Of a DNA stretch of 64,000 nucleotides, positions 134 through 11,807 are shown in pieces. This stretch comes from Deltaproteobacteria bacterium (GTDB lineage: Bacteria > Desulfobacterota > Binatia > Binatales > Binataceae): positions 1 to 64,000 of the forward strand of contig PLDK01000025.1 in NCBI GenBank assembly GCA_003135135.1, read 5' to 3'. Numbering within the stretch: the stretch's first letter is position 1; the number at the start of each line of letters is the position of its first letter. The notes below the pieces were generated by a model. It was given only the letters and a program-made list of their open reading frames with translations, searched no databases and was not told where the DNA came from. A program made the translations under genes and the position numbers.

Positions 134-1522
<1,389 letters not shown>

Positions 1523-1534
1523 TTAGGCGCAATC

Positions 1535-1589
1535 GGTGATGGGGTTCCACCGCCAACCGCTCCCGCTTGAGTGAGCTGATGACTCCTAC
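1535..1589 (+). promoter_or_regulatory. Fluoride riboswitch aptamer (crcB motif)
   Basis: The sequence begins GGTGATGGGGTTCCACC and ends GAGCTGATGACTCCTAC, which matches the crcB-motif consensus. P1 is GGTG with CACC. GGGGTT at 1541-1546 can pair with GACTCC at 1581-1586, and GCTC with GAGC closes the middle stem. It lies upstream of the DUF190-CBS gene and fluC, the fluoride exporter gene this class most often controls. The overlapping terminator indicates an ON switch: fluoride binding holds the aptamer and prevents termination. Confidence 0.94.
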
Positions 1590-1620
1590 TGGTGTTGAAC
1601 ACGGGTAGGGGCTTTTTTTT
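1583..1620 (+). terminator. Riboswitch expression-platform terminator
   Basis: CTCCTAC at 1583-1589, the 3' arm of the aptamer, can instead pair with GTAGGGG at 1605-1611, with a small GTGTT-G-AACAC hairpin inside the loop, followed by eight Ts at 1613-1620. The terminator and the aptamer therefore compete for the same bases. This is the usual architecture of a transcription-terminating riboswitch. Confidence 0.85.
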
Positions 1621-1631
1621 AAAGGGCTCTC

Positions 1632-1690
1632 GCAGGCTGTTGAAGCGCTTGGAATCAAACCGAGTTGCTCCGAGTTTTTCAACACCCTGC
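1632..1690. repeat. 59-bp inverted-repeat element (MITE-like)
   Basis: A 13-base arm, GCAGGCTGTTGAA (1632-1644), is matched by its reverse complement with one mismatch at 1678-1690 (TTCAACACCCTGC). The GCAGGxTGTTGAAAAA type of end is common on IS1182-like and related transposons, so this may be a tiny non-autonomous element or two remnant ends. A CGAGTT word is repeated inside. It lies in the leader between the riboswitch terminator and the start of the DUF190-CBS gene and would form a second strong hairpin in that mRNA. No target-site duplication is evident. Confidence 0.5.
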
Positions 1691-1806
1691 TAGTGAAAGG
1701 TACAGGGTCCTTTTTTGATCGCCAGCATCTTGCAATCTGATACGCTTTCGCAAGAACGGTTTGCAAGGGCGCATCCGCTTTCACAACGCCAGGAGGGCAG
1801 TGATCG

Positions 1807-3111
1807 ATGTTCACCGGAAGGGCTAAGCAGGTCACGATCTATTTCGGCGAGACGGATCAATACCGTCACCAGGCGCTGTACATGGCGATCATCGAGATGC
1901 TTCGGCGCGAGGGGTGTAGCGGCGCGACCGCGATGCGCGGAGTGGCGGGGTTTGGGGCCTCATCGCTGATTCACACGGCGGCGATCCTTCGGCTGTCCTT
2001 CGATCAGCCAATCGTGATCACAGTTGTAGATCGCGCCGAGCGGATCGATCGCGTGCTTGGTCCGATCCGGGAGATGGCTCCGAACGCACTGATCACGGTT
2101 CAAGAGGTGGAAGTCGTTCAATCGGGAGTGCCCTTCAAGGAAGGTTTGCCCGACGTGAAGGTCGGAGAGGTAATGCGCCGTGAAGTCGCCACGGTGCATC
2201 CCGACAGCCCCATCACCCAGGTCGTAGAGCTACTCCTGGACAAGGATTTCAGCGCCGTCCCGGTGGTGGACAATGACGGGAAAGTGGTCGGCATGGTCAG
2301 CGACAACGATCTGCTGACACGAGGCGGGATGAACGTCACGATCAGTCTGAAAAAGGCCACCGATCTGGATTACGTGCGCGAGCTTCACGAATCGCTGGAG
2401 AACGCGAACCGCAAAGTGTCGGAAGTGATGACGCGAGAGGTGGTGACGACCGCTCCCGACATGATTCTCGGACGAGCTGCCAGGCTTATGGTCGAAAAAC
2501 ATCTCAAGCGGCTACCGGTCGTGGATAGCGATGGAAAGTTGGTGGGCATCCTGGGCCGGCTTGATGTTTTGAACACGATCGCGGCGGTCCATCTGTCCGA
2601 GTGGCACCCCGAGGCCCGCAGCGCCGGCCCGGATGCGACGGTCGACGACGTGATGACACGTGAGGTTCCGAGCGTGCACGAATCGGCAACCATCGAGGAA
2701 GTTTTCGAGCTGCTGGTCTCGTCGGCCCACAAGCGGGTTGTGGTTATAGATGACAAGCGGCACGTCGTAGGGATTATCGCGGGCTCCGACTTGATTTCGA
2801 AAGTAAGCCGCGAGAGCTGGCCGGGCGTGATGGAACTCCTGGTCTCCAAGGTCCCGATTGAGAGGATCAGCGGACCGGCCCGCAAACACATTCAGAAGCT
2901 TCGCGCGCGGTTTGCCAGAGAACTGATGACGCGGGACGTGATCACCGTCCGCGAGAAAATGCCGGTTATCAGCGCGCTGGCACTATCCGCGGAAAAGCGC
3001 GTGAAGCGTCTGCCGGTGGTGGACGCCGAAGGCGCGCTGGTTGGAATCGTGGGGCGAACCGAAATGATGCGGGCGCTGCTCGCGCGAAGCGAAGCGGAAA
3101 AGGGGCTGTAG
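1807..3111 (+). CDS. DUF190 (PII-like) protein fused to four CBS domains
   Basis: Residues 1-105 form a DUF190 domain (VTIYFGETDQYRHQALYMAI, GCSGATAMRGVAGFGASSLI), a small PII-like fold. Four CBS domains follow, each opening with a VMTREV-like helix and carrying a PVVD-x-GK-x-VG strand: about 118-172, 198-253, 272-325 and 370-428. CBS pairs usually bind adenine nucleotides and act as sensors. An AGGAGGG ribosome site lies at 1791-1797. The stop is two bases before the fluC start, so the two are co-transcribed behind the fluoride riboswitch. DUF190 genes often sit next to crcB/fluC, which suggests a regulatory or accessory role in fluoride export or stress, but the biochemical function is unknown. 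Confidence 0.9.
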   Translation: MFTGRAKQVTIYFGETDQYRHQALYMAIIEMLRREGCSGATAMRGVAGFGASSLIHTAAILRLSFDQPIVITVVDRAERIDRVLGPIREMAPNALITVQEVEVVQSGVPFKEGLPDVKVGEVMRREVATVHPDSPITQVVELLLDKDFSAVPVVDNDGKVVGMVSDNDLLTRGGMNVTISLKKATDLDYVRELHESLENANRKVSEVMTREVVTTAPDMILGRAARLMVEKHLKRLPVVDSDGKLVGILGRLDVLNTIAAVHLSEWHPEARSAGPDATVDDVMTREVPSVHESATIEEVFELLVSSAHKRVVVIDDKRHVVGIIAGSDLISKVSRESWPGVMELLVSKVPIERISGPARKHIQKLRARFARELMTRDVITVREKMPVISALALSAEKRVKRLPVVDAEGALVGIVGRTEMMRALLARSEAEKGL

Positions 3112-3112
3112 G

Positions 3113-3487
3113 GTGTTGGCGGTTGTTCTGGTTGCGATTGGCGGCGGCATCGGATCGGCGACGCGGTATTTGGCCAGTGGCTGGATTGCCGCTCGTTTTG
3201 GGAGTGCGTTCCCGTACGGAACATTTGCAATCAATGTCACAGCAAGTTTCATCATCGGCTTTTTCCTGGCATTTGCTCAGGAGCGAGTCAGCCTCAATCC
3301 GAATTTGCGCCTTTTCGTCGCGGTCGGTTTCATCGGCGGTTATTCGACGTTCTCGACCTTTGAGTACGAATCGGTTCGCTTGCTTCAAGACGGAGAGATG
3401 CTGCTGGGCGCGGTATATCTTCTCGGCAGTGTGATCACCGGAGGTCTCGCCGCAATCGGGGGAATCGCATTGGGAAGCCGGCTATGA
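3113..3487 (+). CDS. crcB: Fluoride ion channel FluC/CrcB
   Basis: A 124-residue inner-membrane protein with four hydrophobic helices, the standard size for Fluc dual-topology dimeric fluoride channels, which let toxic F- leave the cytoplasm. Signatures are GGGIGSATRY near the N terminus, the GTFAINVTASFIIGF helix with its conserved Asn, and GGYSTFSTFEYE, the Phe-box/Na+ site segment normally written GGxTTFSTF. The start is GTG at 3113, two bases after the previous stop, with AAGGGG upstream. Control by the fluoride riboswitch at 1535 is expected for the whole transcript. Confidence 0.97.
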   Translation: MLAVVLVAIGGGIGSATRYLASGWIAARFGSAFPYGTFAINVTASFIIGFFLAFAQERVSLNPNLRLFVAVGFIGGYSTFSTFEYESVRLLQDGEMLLGAVYLLGSVITGGLAAIGGIALGSRL

Positions 3488-3542
3488 CCCGGCCCCGTCG
3501 CGGTTGAATGATAAGGACGGCTGGTAGGAGTCAGCGAAGACC

Positions 3543-3597
3543 GGTGATGGGGTTCACTAGAACTGCTTTGCTCTGAGCAGGGCTGACGACCCCTACC
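3543..3597 (+). promoter_or_regulatory. Second fluoride-riboswitch-like aptamer, downstream of fluC
   Basis: The segment runs GGTGATGGGGTTCACT...AACTGC...GGGCTGACGACCCCTACC and keeps the crcB-motif layout. GGTG can pair with CACT, CTGCT with AGCAG, and GGGGTT (3549-3554) with GACCCC (3588-3593). The last pairing differs from the first aptamer's but is still complementary, which is covariation-like support. One conserved U in GCTGATG reads C. No gene follows on this strand for about 5 kb. GCAA-capped GGCC stems and CCTA/TAGG (3592-3617) could form a platform hairpin, but no T-run follows. Confidence 0.68.
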
Positions 3598-3651
3598 AAG
3601 GCCGCAAGGCCGATAGGAGTCTCCCATCAGTCGAACGATTTGCGCGTCCCG

Positions 3652-5169
3652 TTACCCGCCGCTGGGAATGGGAGATGCGCGGACGGCGCGCTCGAACGCC
3701 CAGGCACGAATGTGATTGATCTGCTCCTTCATGGTGCGCGCCAGCGGAACCAGCTCACCGGCGGCCAGGAAGAGATCCTGCTCGGTAACCTCATGGTCCT
3801 TCAGCCGCGCCCTGATCAGCGCCGATACGACGGTCTGCTCGATCTCGGCACCGGTCCAGCCCTTCATAAAGTCCGCCAATCGTTCCAGATCAAACTTGCT
3901 CGCATCTATTTCCCGGCGGCCGAGGTGAATCTTCAAGATCTCGATCCGTTCGGCAACCAGCGGCAGGTCAACGAAGAAGACCTCATCGAAACGTCCTTTG
4001 CGAATCATCTCGGCGGGAAGCAGGTCGATCCGGTTTGCGGTGGCGGCGACAAAGAGCCCGCGCGCCTTCTCCTGCATCCAGGTCAGAAAGAAGGCGAAGA
4101 TCCTGCCCTGCTCGCCGCCCGGATCCCCCGAGGTAATCCCCATCTCAATCTCGTCGAACCAAACCACCGCGGGCGCCATATCCTCGAGCGTCTTGCAGGC
4201 CTGGACGAATGCTCCCTCGGGCTCCCCATGCCTGCCGGAGAAGACCTCGATCATGTCGATTCGATAGAGAGGAAGCTCGAAGTGCGAGGAGATGGCTTTG
4301 ATGCAAAGGCTCTTGCCGCAGCCCGGGATGCCCATGACGAGAACGCCCTTGGGGACGATGTCAGTGCTCAGGCTCTCGCGGAGTTGAAACAGTTTACGAC
4401 GCTCTAGCAACCACTGCTTGAGCTTCTCCAGGCCGCCGACCTCGCCGATGCTCGTGCTGTCGGCAATAAACTCGATGACGCCGCCGCGGTTGACGAGCAG
4501 CCGCTTTTCCTCGAGCAGGGCCGGTAACGACTCGGGGCCGAGGGTTGGACTCACAGCCAGAGCACGGCGCACCGCGTGGCGCGCCTCCTGGAGCGTGACT
4601 CCCTGCAGGGCGCGCGCGAGCTGGTAGAGGGTTTCCTCGCTCACGTCGGGCGCCGAGAGTCGCCGAGCCTCGATGCGCAAAAGCTCGACCAGCTCGATGA
4701 GATCAGGCGGCCGCAGCTCGAGATACACAATGTCCCGCTCGATCTCCTCAGGAACGAATCGCACCGGTGAACTGATGACTATGAACTTCCGTTGATCGAG
4801 ACAGCTTTCGTACAGGTCTCGAAGACGGCGCCTGACCTCCGGAGATTCGCGCAGCGGCTCGTGAAAGTCCTTGAGATGGAAGATGGCGGCGTCCTTGTGG
4901 GCGGCGATGAAGTCCAGAGCTTCGCGAGGATCGAGAGTGCCGGCCTGAGCTACTGCGTCATCGCGAAGCAATCCCTGGGTGAGGCTCCAGGTCCAAACGG
5001 GCACCGGTGTGGACGCGTACAGCGCTCGGCCGACCTCGCGCAGCAGCCTTCCGATTCGCTGCTCTTCGGCGGAGCGGATATAGGTGAGCGGTCGTCCTGA
5101 CTGGAAGATCTCGCGCAGCGTCTTTGCCGCGCGGCTCTCAACAGGCTGAGGTTTTGCAGAATCCTTCAT
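3652..5169 (-). CDS. Ycf46-like AAA+ ATPase
   Basis: A 505-residue AAA+ ATPase. The N-terminal half (to about 250) resembles the Ycf46 family, with a degenerate nucleotide-binding-like region (KFIVISSPVRFVPEEIERDI). The C-terminal AAA module has Walker A GIPGCGKS (about 280-287), Walker B VVWFDEIE (about 335-342), sensor-1 AATANR and an arginine-finger region MIRKGRFDEVFF. The lid helical domain follows (GWTGAEIEQTVVSALIRAR). Ycf46 proteins occur in chloroplast genomes, cyanobacteria and many other bacteria and are linked to CO2 or photosynthesis regulation in cyanobacteria; the role here is unknown. It appears to be a single-gene unit. Its 3' end faces the orphan aptamer region. Confidence 0.85.
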   Translation of the reverse strand: MKDSAKPQPVESRAAKTLREIFQSGRPLTYIRSAEEQRIGRLLREVGRALYASTPVPVWTWSLTQGLLRDDAVAQAGTLDPREALDFIAAHKDAAIFHLKDFHEPLRESPEVRRRLRDLYESCLDQRKFIVISSPVRFVPEEIERDIVYLELRPPDLIELVELLRIEARRLSAPDVSEETLYQLARALQGVTLQEARHAVRRALAVSPTLGPESLPALLEEKRLLVNRGGVIEFIADSTSIGEVGGLEKLKQWLLERRKLFQLRESLSTDIVPKGVLVMGIPGCGKSLCIKAISSHFELPLYRIDMIEVFSGRHGEPEGAFVQACKTLEDMAPAVVWFDEIEMGITSGDPGGEQGRIFAFFLTWMQEKARGLFVAATANRIDLLPAEMIRKGRFDEVFFVDLPLVAERIEILKIHLGRREIDASKFDLERLADFMKGWTGAEIEQTVVSALIRARLKDHEVTEQDLFLAAGELVPLARTMKEQINHIRAWAFERAVRASPIPSGG

Positions 5170-5403
5170 AGAAAAATCGCGAGAGTTGTGAGCCTGCGCT
5201 CGACTCCTTCGGCACCCTCAGATGTCCCGGTTCAGATCATAGCGGTCGCGAGTCCACCGGTCACGCGCCGGGACGGGGGCCACGCGGCGGACCCACCAGC
5301 GCATCGAATGAATCCAAATTAACACATGCCGGTTAAAAGCGAGCATGGCCATCGGCGTGATTGCATTCTTAATCCCGTGCCTCGCGCACCGCGTCGAGCA
5401 GCC

Positions 5404-6198
5404 TCAATCCGCCGGCGAGACCCGCAGCGTCAGCACGTGAGGCCCGCGGAAATAGCGGTCAAACTCGCCGCCGACGTAGTTCCAATTGTCATTGGGATTA
5501 AACCACGCGTCCATCGTTGGCATGAACGGCGCGAGCAACAGATTCAAAACTCCCAGATCGGGCCGCATATCGAGGCGGACGAGATCTCCCGGGTATAGAG
5601 GCCAATGCTCCGATCGATCCGGAAGCGAAGTCTCGACGCTGAAGATCGCAGGTCCTGGCACGCATGCGAACGCATGGAATCTGACTTCACGGATCCCATG
5701 CCTAAGACTCGCGACCACCATCATAAGTTCGGACGCGCCGGCGAAAGAATCGGCTGGGACCTCGAGCTGGGACTTGCGCACTTTTATCTTTCCCGCTGTA
5801 TAGCTCGCACACGAGGCAACGCCGGATTTGGCATTCAGCGTGTCGACCATATGAAGCGTGCCGTCGGCGTTGAAAAACGAGTGCTGGTAAGAATCGAGTC
5901 TGGGTATGGAGTCCGGGTTTCCTACGTATAGCCGTTCGCTTTCATTATCGTGTTCGCCGTCCAGGTATCTGGTCTCGCCCTTAACCTCTTCGGTTGAGCT
6001 TTCATGCAAGACCATGAAACGCGTAGATCCGATCGTCTGCTTCCCGTCAGGACTCAAGACCTTCAACTCGAGCGTGCCGAAATCGAAGGCGCCGCTGGAA
6101 TTCGGCCCGGATGCGACCGGGTTCCCCCAAATCGCCGCGTTGGCGGCCAGCGCGAACACGACCAGCAGCGTCGTTTTCAAAATCCGGCTCCAGGGCAA
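5404..6198 (-). CDS. Secreted protein of unknown function
   Basis: The 264-residue product opens with a signal peptide (basic RILK then a hydrophobic LLVVFALAANAAIW stretch) and has no further membrane helix. I recognise no catalytic motif. A middle region contains two cysteines (SCASY near 140 and FACVP near 182) that could pair in the periplasm. The gene follows the glycosyltransferase stop by 15 bases, so it is the third gene of the phosphoesterase-glycosyltransferase operon and may serve the same envelope or lipid process. That role is inferred only from position. Confidence 0.7.
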   Translation of the reverse strand: MPWSRILKTTLLVVFALAANAAIWGNPVASGPNSSGAFDFGTLELKVLSPDGKQTIGSTRFMVLHESSTEEVKGETRYLDGEHDNESERLYVGNPDSIPRLDSYQHSFFNADGTLHMVDTLNAKSGVASCASYTAGKIKVRKSQLEVPADSFAGASELMMVVASLRHGIREVRFHAFACVPGPAIFSVETSLPDRSEHWPLYPGDLVRLDMRPDLGVLNLLLAPFMPTMDAWFNPNDNWNYVGGEFDRYFRGPHVLTLRVSPAD

Positions 6199-6213
6199 TG
6201 GCAGAACTGCTGA

Positions 6214-7470
6214 TCAGGCACTCCGGTGGACTTCCGGTGCGAATCGGGCCGCAGTCGGAGTGCGCGCGAATCCCGAGTTTGCGGCTCGATGGTGAGAAAT
6301 CAGGGCCGCCAGAATTTCGGGGACTTCAAACACCGCACGGTTGTCGAGGGCTTGTACGCTGGCGCGGAGGCGGAGGAACTGCTCGCGATCCAGCATCGTC
6401 GAAACCGCAAGGGCGATCTGCCGCAAGGAAGGCAACACTATTCCGAGCTGATTTTGCGCGATCCAATCGGTGTTGAAGCGCTCCTGCACCATCGTCCAGG
6501 CGTTGCGCTCGACTATCACCGGGAGACCCATAACGAGCGCTTCGCTGATGCAACCCGGACCCGGCTTGCCGATGAAAAAATCAGCCAGCTGCATGAAGTA
6601 CGGAATTTCTGATGTGAAGCCTACACAATGAAAGGGATAGGACAGCTTCATGCTTTCGATATGCTCGCGCAGCTTGTCATTGTGACCGCATACGAAAATA
6701 AGCTGGGTCTTCAGCCGGGCGGCTTCGATTCTTCTCACGATAGCTGCCATCTGGCTCGAGCCGTAGCTGCCAAACATCACGATGCCCGTCGGCAATTCGG
6801 GATCGAGCCCCAGCCGGATTCGCTCGGCTTCGCGGCTTAGCTCCATCTGGCTATAGAACTCGGGACGCACGATCATTCCCGAGGTGCGAAACACGCGCGC
6901 GCGGTCATGTCCCATAGCTATCGCTTGCCTGGCCGCGGTAGCAGTGCCGCAAACCAGGTACTGCTTTTGCCGCTCGATCCAGAAGTGCGGCGGACAGTCG
7001 GCCAGGTCGGTAAGTATCGTGACCATGGGAGTTTCCGACCGTGCCCGCATCGCGTCGGCTTGTCGCAGGCCTTCCAAAATCGCGTGATTGAAATTGGGGA
7101 TCATCGAGACCACAAGGTCGGGCTGCGAGCGCTGCCAATGGCGCGCCAGCAGCTTGATCATTGTCGGCTCGATTTGCCGAATCACCATCTGCATTATCCG
7201 CAGCATCGGGCCGGTGCCGATGGTAAGACCGTATTTGAGCTGCGAATTGTAGAAGTCTTCCACGCGAACGCCGGTGAGGCGCCGGATCACGTCGGCCGGT
7301 TCGAGCAGGTCGCGCAGGTTGATTGGATTGATTTGCCACGAACGATGCTGCTGTTCAGCCGCCGATATCAGTGCTCTTGCCGAAGCGCGGTGTCCGCCAC
7401 CCGCGTCGAAGTAGATCAGATCGATTTGTGCATCCGGGTAATTCGTCGATTCAGGACGATAAGTTGTCAC
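6214..7470 (-). CDS. MGDG-synthase/MurG-type glycosyltransferase (GT28-like)
   Basis: About 418 residues. The N-terminal MGDG-synthase domain has LIYFDAGGGHRASARAL near residue 20, then LVVSMIPNFNHAI. The C-terminal GT-B domain has GIVMFGSYGSS and the donor-binding stretch FFIGKPGPGCISEALVMGLP. Family members add hexoses to diacylglycerol or act like MurG on lipid-linked sugars at the inner membrane. I set the start at GTG 7470, which overlaps the phosphoesterase stop as GTGA; the longer open frame upstream is only the neighbour read in another frame. Tight coupling to a PlcP-like enzyme, which could supply diacylglycerol, suggests glucosyl- or galactosyl-diacylglycerol synthesis. Sugar and acceptor are unknown. 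Confidence 0.85.
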   Translation of the reverse strand: MTTYRPESTNYPDAQIDLIYFDAGGGHRASARALISAAEQQHRSWQINPINLRDLLEPADVIRRLTGVRVEDFYNSQLKYGLTIGTGPMLRIMQMVIRQIEPTMIKLLARHWQRSQPDLVVSMIPNFNHAILEGLRQADAMRARSETPMVTILTDLADCPPHFWIERQKQYLVCGTATAARQAIAMGHDRARVFRTSGMIVRPEFYSQMELSREAERIRLGLDPELPTGIVMFGSYGSSQMAAIVRRIEAARLKTQLIFVCGHNDKLREHIESMKLSYPFHCVGFTSEIPYFMQLADFFIGKPGPGCISEALVMGLPVIVERNAWTMVQERFNTDWIAQNQLGIVLPSLRQIALAVSTMLDREQFLRLRASVQALDNRAVFEVPEILAALISHHRAANSGFARTPTAARFAPEVHRSA

Positions 7471-8762: not shown

Positions 8763-10019
8763 ATGCCGAACAAGCCGCAAATGCTGGAAGGCTACCGGGT
8801 TCTGGACTTCACGCAGTTCGTGGCGGGGCCGACCTGCACGCGAATCCTCGCCGAGATGGGCGCTGAAGTAATCAAGGTCGAACTCGCGCCGGCTGGAGAT
8901 CGCATCCGCGCCGACGGGCTCAAGTCGCGCGCGCCGGAATTCAAGAACTCGAGCCATAGCACCTACTATCTGCAGCACAACCACTCAAAGCTAAGCTTTG
9001 CGATCGATCTCAAAAAACCCGGAGCGCGAGAGATCGTGATGTCGATGATTCCGCAGATCGACGTGGTAGTTGAAAATTTCGCGCCGCGAGTGATCGACCG
9101 GCTGGGATTTGCCTACAAGGACATCAAGGCAGTCAATCCGAAAATCATCATGTGCTCGATTTCGATGGCGGGGCAGACCGGACCGCTGTCGGTCAAGGCC
9201 GGCTACGATTTTATCGGCCAGGCATATGCGGGGATTACCGACGGAATCGGGCAGGCCGATGGGCCGCCCGCGCTGACGACGATGGCGATCGGCGACGTTT
9301 CAACCGGCGTCGCCGCGGCGATGGCGGTCGGCTTCGCGCTGTTGCATCGCGAGCGCACGGGAGAAGGCCAGTATCTCGACGCGTCGCTGCTGGATACCTA
9401 CTTCCACATGCACGAGAAGACCGTGCCGATCGTGTCGCTGCGCGGCGACAAGTTTCGTCCGACGCGAACCGGTTCGATCCATCCCGATGGCGGCACCACC
9501 GGCATTTTTCATTTCCGTGGCGACCAATACATTCTGATTACATCGACGCCGCATCAATGGCCGCAGCTGGTGCGGGCGCTCGGGATGCCTGAATTGGCGG
9601 CCGACCCGCGCTTCAAGGATCCTCGCGGGCGGCGCGACAACAAGGAACAACTGAGAGACGTGATCGAGAAGTGGCTCACACGCTTTTCGACCCGTGACGA
9701 CGCGATCGCCGCGCTGGATGCTGAACGCGTGCCGTGCGCTCCGGTGCTGACGGTCAACGAAGCCGTAAAGCATCCGCATCTCAACGAGCGCAAGACGGTT
9801 CGCTGGGTCAAGGATCCGATTCTGGGCACGGTCGCGATTCCGGGTGTGCCGGTGAAGTTTTCGGCATGGCCGGACCGGACCGAAGTCCGTTCTTCGAGAC
9901 TGGGTGAGGACAACGAGCGCATACTGCGCGAACTGCTCAAGATGCCGGCGGAGCGGATTGCCAAGCTCTACGCCGAAGGAATCCTGGTCCGCGATCCGAC
10001 GCTCGAAAGGCAGGGGTGA
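8763..10019 (+). CDS. CaiB/BaiF family III CoA transferase
   Basis: The 418-residue product is a class III acyl-CoA transferase, which moves CoA between carboxylic acids through an aspartyl-acyl intermediate. Typical features are VLDFTQFVAGPTCTRILAEM at the N terminus, GAEVIKVE, SKLSFAIDLKKP, the GYDFIGQAYAGI region, and IGDVSTGVAAAMA around residue 180, which holds the expected catalytic Asp. RTGEGQYLDASLLD and a C-terminal GVPVKFS follow. GGGAGA precedes the ATG. The substrate cannot be read from sequence (formyl, carnitine, bile-acid, succinyl and other types look alike). The stop codon lies inside a dispersed palindromic repeat (10010-10130), so the last residues RQG are encoded by repeat-like DNA. 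Confidence 0.93.
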   Translation: MPNKPQMLEGYRVLDFTQFVAGPTCTRILAEMGAEVIKVELAPAGDRIRADGLKSRAPEFKNSSHSTYYLQHNHSKLSFAIDLKKPGAREIVMSMIPQIDVVVENFAPRVIDRLGFAYKDIKAVNPKIIMCSISMAGQTGPLSVKAGYDFIGQAYAGITDGIGQADGPPALTTMAIGDVSTGVAAAMAVGFALLHRERTGEGQYLDASLLDTYFHMHEKTVPIVSLRGDKFRPTRTGSIHPDGGTTGIFHFRGDQYILITSTPHQWPQLVRALGMPELAADPRFKDPRGRRDNKEQLRDVIEKWLTRFSTRDDAIAALDAERVPCAPVLTVNEAVKHPHLNERKTVRWVKDPILGTVAIPGVPVKFSAWPDRTEVRSSRLGEDNERILRELLKMPAERIAKLYAEGILVRDPTLERQG

Positions 10020-10130
10020 CCCCTGCACCCAACGTTAAGGCCGCCCGCCATTGGCGGGCGCGGCCCCTGCCAACGGCTTAATACTGCGCTGCCGTCGCCA
10101 CGGCCGGGAGTGACCCGTGCACCTTAGCGT
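10010..10130. repeat. Dispersed palindromic repeat, copy B
   Basis: The unit starts with GCAGGGGTGACCCCTGCACCC, whose core CAGGGGT-G-ACCCCTG is a perfect inverted repeat, then a CCCGCC/GGCGGG hairpin, GCCCCTGCCAACGGCTTAAT and a decayed second GAGTGACCCGTGCACC. It closely follows the order of copy C (11648-11784). The TGA in the first palindrome is the stop of the CoA-transferase gene. The palindromes may act as a transcription end or a nuclease-stable 3' end. Confidence 0.8.
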
Positions 10131-11610: not shown

Positions 11611-11647
11611 GTCCTTATCGGCGGGGGGAGAACTTAATTGTATGCGA

Positions 11648-11784
11648 AACCCACCGTGGGTTGCAGGGGTGACCCCTGCACCCAGTGTTAAGGCCGCCCG
11701 CCGTTGGCGGGCGCGACCCCTGCCAATGGCTTAATACTGCGCTGCCGTCGCTACGGGCAGGGGCGACCCCTGCACCCAGTATTA
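11648..11784. repeat. Dispersed palindromic repeat, copy C (most complete)
   Basis: The unit opens with AACCCACCGTGGGTT, a perfect inverted repeat, then GCAGGGGTGACCCCTGCACC, the CCCGCCGTTGGCGGG hairpin, GACCCCTGCCAATGGCTTAA and a second CAGGGGCGACCCCTGCACCC ending AGTATTA. It sits between pabAB and pabC and may uncouple or stabilise their transcript. Copies with the same order of words lie at 1-67, 10010-10130 and 43789-43846. Confidence 0.85.
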
Positions 11785-11807
11785 AAACAAAGATGCAAAG
11801 GTCGGTT

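Follow-up and report, generated by a model that had tools for sequence, protein, structure and literature searches.

Two fluoride aptamers at one locus

The window analysed here is the initial 64 kb of contig C38 of a draft assembly (source genome G000, 3.73 Mb in 51 contigs). It begins with a fluoride locus in which an aptamer-led operon (aptamer A) ends with fluC and is followed by a second aptamer (B). Several features were delimited by comparison with G006, a genome of the same genus. The features are as follows.

134-1465, minus strand: enolase gene, divergent from aptamer A (Pfam)
1526-1595, plus strand: fluoride aptamer A, leader of the DUF190/CBS-fluC operon, with a hairpin and a run of 8 T 3' of it (RF01734, 56.9 bits)
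1807-3111, plus strand: gene for a 434-aa protein with a DUF190 domain and four CBS stretches (ORF; Pfam PF02641, PF00571; relatives)
3113-3487, plus strand: fluC (crcB) fluoride exporter gene, 124 aa (ORF; Pfam PF02537 CRCB)
3504-3531, plus strand: changed promoter of the putative lost gene, with -35 TTGAAT at 3504-3509, -10 AGGAGT at 3526-3531 and a 16-nt spacer (comparison with G006)
3523-3535, plus strand: 'competing arm' GGTAGG-A-GTCAGC, on the former -10 box, absent in G006 (sequence; G006 comparison; complement count)
3534-3602, core 3543-3597, plus strand: orphan fluoride aptamer B (RF01734, 35.3 bits; 23 of 25 conserved columns kept)
3588-3621, plus strand: former terminator hairpin GACCCCTA..TAGGAGTC, without U-run (-16.2 kcal/mol)
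3638-5232, minus strand: AAA ATPase block, between leader B and the nhaP remnant, with its gene at 3652-5169 (93% identical to G006:C6 8410-10017; Pfam AAA)
5333-5384, plus strand: in-frame remnant of an nhaP-type Na+/H+ exchanger gene, LKASMAIGVIAFLIPCL (LKQSMAIGVIAFLIPFL in G006; 46/52 nt identical)

The original prediction had placed a second crcB-like aptamer after fluC, with no gene downstream on its strand, and had named the lack of a covariance-model match as evidence against it. The second aptamer and the lack of a gene after it are both borne out. A search with cmscan against Rfam matched RF01734 at 3534-3602 (E 4.6e-6), with a score narrowly above the gathering cut-off of 34 bits, and aptamers A and B are the two above-cut-off matches to this family in the source genome (150 of 584 first-look candidates scored). 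The ORF list holds no gene on the same strand 3' of aptamer B: the next gene, at a distance of 50 nt, is the AAA ATPase gene on the opposite strand, convergent with fluC and aptamer B. Between the two, a single plus-strand ORF of 60 aa or more has its start (3640-4407); it is antisense to the AAA gene and was therefore not counted as a gene.

Aptamer B is nearly intact. Among the columns conserved at 85% or more in 58 other RF01734 matches, it departs from the consensus in two, and both departures also occur in other leaders. Judging from these residues it may still bind fluoride, and binding is plausible. Counts over the relatives derive from 80 listed RF01734 matches, of which 61 were carried on (19 weak ones being omitted) and 60 used, one lying off the fetched stretch. 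The column count took in 59 of these (at least 20 bits), and the promoter and T-run counts the 55 with at least 30 bits.

Aptamers after fluC in the relatives

Matches to RF01734 over the cut-off occur in 22 of the 58 genomes searched, the source genome included, and several family genomes carry many. Within the genus, G006 has one match and G001-G005 have none at E ≤ 0.1. The DNA of leader B likewise finds a match in G006, where the leader stands with its gene, and none in the other five. The original prediction had taken absence of the segment from close relatives as a point against it; such absence was found in five genus members, and not in G006.

We then considered 19 distinct fluC places, drawn from aptamer-bearing loci and five chosen loci rather than from the 31 fluC matches listed. 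Six of them have an aptamer at most 250 nt downstream of fluC, and five of these have, 248-292 nt beyond fluC, a gene in the same orientation; the exception is the source genome. Four loci (in G019, G022, G032 and the MAG YP4.bin102) have genes of a Nuo/Hyf-like membrane complex after the aptamer. The fifth, in G023, has nhaP and usp, and its full order is aptamer A, DUF190/CBS gene, fluC, aptamer B, nhaP, usp. None of the five shows a conserved 3'-UTR element after fluC without a downstream gene. Two loci outside the 19 (L059 of G029 and L062 of G030) have an aptamer before a NuoH-like gene, following DUF190, with no fluC at E ≤ 1e-10.

Both kinds of downstream gene have counterparts in the literature. 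Leaders of the crcB type have been described before 'formate hydrogen lyase' genes (PMC2864571), and four of the five other fluC-aptamer loci are like them in having the aptamer before Nuo/Hyf-like genes. The orphan is unlike them, as it is closer to an nhaP leader and the remnant is nhaP. Na+/H+ antiporters are described as the next most common riboswitch-associated class after exporters, tied to pH homeostasis (PMC11139923). RF01734 leaders before antiporter genes are like the orphan in aptamer sequence and fold, and the orphan still shows a recognisable hairpin that overlaps the 3' arm of its aptamer. They differ in that the orphan's gene is gone, its promoter boxes are changed, its U-run is missing and another gene stands before the remnant. 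No orphaned fluoride riboswitch appeared among the literature matches listed, which came mostly from journals without subscription, and the word fluoride was absent from the listed matches on Binatia.

As a separate observation, several family genomes carry fluoride islands. Matches to RF01734 at E ≤ 0.1, some of them below the cut-off, number 12 in G029, 7 in G022, 7 in G023 and 5 in G019 (loci L053 and L056-L061). The island aptamers precede enolase, pyrophosphatase, dynamin-like and metallophosphoesterase genes and a YkoP-SAM synthetase pair, among others. At L056 (9208-17021), L053, L062 and L064, an aptamer stands before an operon of NuoH-, HyfE-, HyfF-, NuoCD-, NuoB- and HyfB-like proteins, whose NCBIfam matches, among those listed, all fall below the cut-offs. 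A complex-I/Hyf-like membrane complex is apparently under fluoride control here. In G018 (L124, 6669-6839), a NuoH-like fragment (residues 216-259) lies 39 nt after fluC, and an aptamer was not found in the locus. This is probably another truncated island, interrupted where the contig ends.

Homology of leader B and of the DNA beyond the AAA gene

The best DNA match of leader B among 41 family genomes is the leader of an nhaP-type gene in G006 (seven first-look candidates were scored per genome, so weaker matches may be missing). Positions 3495-3620 are 83% identical to it over 127 nt (123 bits, E 6.8e-28), with the same spacing of elements. The next-best matches, in G030 (67 bits) and G021 (54 bits), both precede NuoH-like genes. 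On contig C14 of G006 the leader precedes a Na_H_Exchanger gene (nhaP type) and then a Usp gene. It is unlike the orphan in having TTGACT and TAAAGT boxes, a strong hairpin with a T-rich tail, and intact nhaP and usp genes. Neither fluC nor DUF190 was found in the 2.6 kb that separate this leader from the contig end upstream, and it may therefore not be the exact counterpart of leader B.

Beyond the AAA block, the stretch at 5333-5384 matches the interior of the G006 nhaP gene, in the frame, strand and order expected. It is the sole match to G006 nhaP DNA in the source genome at E ≤ 0.01 (E 1.4e-11, 39 of 39 candidates scored), and a search of this genome gave no nhaP relative at E ≤ 1e-40. 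When the plus strand of 3600-6300 was searched for further nhaP or usp remnants, only this stretch stood out (E 1.6e-11); other matches had E 0.92 and a reversed control 0.13. In G006, the sequence immediately following usp has its match on a different contig of the source genome (C37:180654-180819); the locus has therefore been broken up in one of the two lineages. Two other origins of aptamer B, as a copy of aptamer A or as the leader of a Nuo/Hyf-like operon such as those found after fluC in several relatives, were rejected because the G006 nhaP leader is far closer and the remnant is nhaP.

The AAA block is matched in 10 other genomes of the 41, G006 among them. The ten loci around these matches contain no match to the leader or the remnant and no fluoride aptamer at E ≤ 0.05. 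The flanks of the AAA gene in G006 match contigs C46 and C43 of the source genome (40 of 136 candidates scored), and they have no match in the four relatives compared. One of these four (L102) gave one further weak match to window DNA, in a different orientation, at a site that we take to be a CoA-transferase-like gene. The motif CGGTT stands at the block end in G006, at the matching site on contig C46 and at the block end in the window, which suggests illegitimate recombination. The direction in which the block moved we infer by parsimony.

Two further observations concern this block and its surroundings. In G029 (L060, 9436-12990), an enolase-like gene led by an aptamer is followed immediately, and in the same orientation, by a relative of the AAA gene, which lies 2-3 kb from aptamers and within the fluoride island. 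The AAA protein may have a link to fluoride, or this arrangement may be a coincidence; the AAA gene may even be an old neighbour in fluoride islands and not an intruder. Dispersed repeats of 40-100 nt are common to the source genome and G006. In the window they lie at 9-49, 10010-10123 and 11632-11796, and G006 has a copy some 45 nt before its nhaP leader (L047 10619-10655). Such repeats could have aided the rearrangements.

Regulatory elements and origin of the orphan aptamer

We used the four-fold sites of the AAA gene, which differ between the source genome and G006 at 30 of 244 positions, as a yardstick of divergence. Leader B differs from that of G006 at 5 of 55 positions in the aptamer and 4 of 23 in the hairpin, all nine being transitions. 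The divergence of aptamer B is at the level of the yardstick (Fisher p 0.64) and therefore indicates no extra constraint on it, in a comparison of few sites with a leader that is possibly not the exact orthologue. The promoter zone (3505-3542) is changed beyond the yardstick, with 14 of 38 positions differing (p 0.0004): TTGACT in G006 corresponds to TTGAAT in the orphan at the -35 box, and TAAAGT to AGGAGT at the -10 box. The promoter pattern TTGACn-N15-18-TAnnnT occurs in 9 of the 12 leaders before NuoH-like or NhaP genes and in 20 of the 55 leaders overall, and is absent from leader B. As 35 of the 55 also lack it, the case for a damaged promoter depends on how leader B compares with that of G006 and with similar leaders. 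A consensus promoter scan of 1400-5450 found nothing at leader B; it also missed the promoter of leader A, and so counts for little.

In crcB RNAs, predicted terminators are described as overlapping the motif, and binding of the ligand should keep the terminator stem from forming (PMC2864571). The leaders in the relatives most likely work by this mechanism. The original prediction had seen a CCTA/TAGG hairpin without a U-run, and this is borne out, the full stem extending over 3588-3621. Within 60 nt downstream of the hairpin, the orphan has at best 3 T in 8 nt. At least 5 T within 8 nt downstream are found in 9 of the 12 leaders before NuoH-like or NhaP genes and in 37 of the 55 overall. Compared with G006, the orphan terminator has lost its U-run and is 10 kcal/mol weaker (-16.2 against -26.3 kcal/mol). 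Leader A looks intact and its hairpin reaches only -17.7 kcal/mol; stem strength alone is therefore no proof of decay in the orphan, and the missing U-run is the mark. The alignment is compatible either with an 11-nt deletion or with sequence having been lost close to where the AAA block joins, the homology of the block starting at 3638. A consensus terminator scan was silent at leader B, and carries little weight since it missed the terminator of leader A as well. Leader B therefore has neither of two features of a working transcription-type switch, a regulated gene on the same strand and a U-run terminator overlapping the aptamer's 3' arm.

The original prediction had also proposed an upstream arm able to pair with the aptamer's own 3' arm. 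Its coordinates and complementarity are exact (GGTAGG at 3523-3528 and GTCAGC at 3530-3535, against GCTGAC at 3582-3587 and CCTACC at 3592-3597), and the tests for an excess over chance are mixed. The RNAduplex energy between the upstream stretch and the aptamer is equalled by 80.6% of 2000 shuffles and by 57.8% of 4738 window pieces, and a lenient complement score by 61% of 1000 window pieces; both results are unremarkable. A strict count against the inverted aptamer, designed post hoc after the arm had been seen, gave 13 of 14 matches with one 3-nt gap, a level attained by none of 1500 random 14-mers and by one of 120 random 54-nt pieces. In the G006 register, the -10 box TAAAGT lies under the arm, at 3526-3531. 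The arm is thus absent from any transcript started at the former promoter, since these start after the -10 box, and is present only in read-through from fluC. Given the excess of changes in this zone, it is conceivable, as a speculation, that an inverted template switch off the aptamer's 3' arm created it.

We conclude that aptamer B is very probably the relic leader of a lost nhaP gene, severed from a 52-nt remnant by the AAA block. We call it a relic because the source genome has lost the gene and retains only a damaged promoter and terminator. Leader and remnant are homologous to the G006 nhaP locus in order and strand, and a foreign block lies between them. The ancestral order would have been that of G023, with aptamer B acting as a terminator-type switch for nhaP. 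The AAA block would then have come between leader and gene in the opposite orientation, nhaP would have been lost but for 52 nt, with usp no longer at this place, and the promoter and terminator of the leader would have decayed. Any remaining transcription of the orphan would come from read-through of the fluC mRNA. We infer that the block moved in, as opposed to a chain of other rearrangements, and likewise the order of events and the lack of a present function. Some observations count against a relic leader. The near-intact aptamer implies that the loss is recent or that some constraint is left, and the excess of changes in the promoter zone is not predicted by plain drift. The orphan state is seen in one genome only, a draft assembly in which the site lies 3.5 kb from a contig end. 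Finding the remnant as the sole match and the AAA loci empty of leader, remnant and aptamer strengthens remnant and junction, while the stem of leader A and the island of G029 weaken two side arguments.

A live switch at this place is unlikely. The original prediction offered three options, in which the element controls the 3' end of the fluC mRNA, controls transcription antisense to the AAA gene, or is a copy that has decayed. Decay fits best, albeit of the leader of a lost nhaP gene and not of a copy of the fluC leader. Control of the 3' end would mean that read-through carries arm and aptamer, and that fluoride shifts the fold so as to alter 3'-end processing, stability or Rho termination. 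This draws no support beyond the intact aptamer: the hairpin lacks a U-run, a gene follows in the five other fluC-aptamer loci, the aptamer diverges as the neutral yardstick does, two of three pairing tests are unremarkable, and G006 has a -10 box in place of the arm. The rarity of the 13/14 complementarity in the post hoc test, the room that convergent genes leave for a 3'-end element and a remaining stem as stable as that of leader A would suit it, and we still regard it as very unlikely. Similarly improbable is a reading in which the aptamer outlived its gene as a fluoride sensor at the 3' end of the fluC mRNA, opposed by the new upstream arm, itself perhaps the product of an inverted template switch. 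If true, a riboswitch would have been reused downstream of its own resistance gene.

An assembly artefact, in which a chimeric contig joins the fluC leader to an unrelated AAA region, is highly improbable. The assembly is a draft, the site is near the contig start and the join is seen in no other of the 41 genomes; however, a single false join would not leave an nhaP remnant on the far side of the AAA block with the expected order and strand, and the altered promoter and terminator also speak against it. Scarcely credible, finally, is an antisense switch, with an own promoter driving a fluoride-controlled transcript into the AAA gene and lowering its expression: orientation, the 50-nt distance and the promoter pattern carried by 9 of the 12 leaders of NuoH-like or NhaP genes agree with it, but it is disfavoured because the -35 and -10 boxes are changed relative to G006, and the promoter scan, weak as it is, found none there.

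The orphan aptamer is real, and its cause is very probably a mostly ordinary one: a riboswitch has become a fossil, and the flanking DNA records how. It illustrates one way in which a riboswitch can be orphaned, with an aptamer that still scores above the family cut-off after its gene has disappeared and its promoter and terminator have been impaired. When genome scans turn up aptamers that lack a downstream gene, these can be fossils of this kind, and they can be recognised directly if a remnant of the gene persists on the far side of an intervening one.
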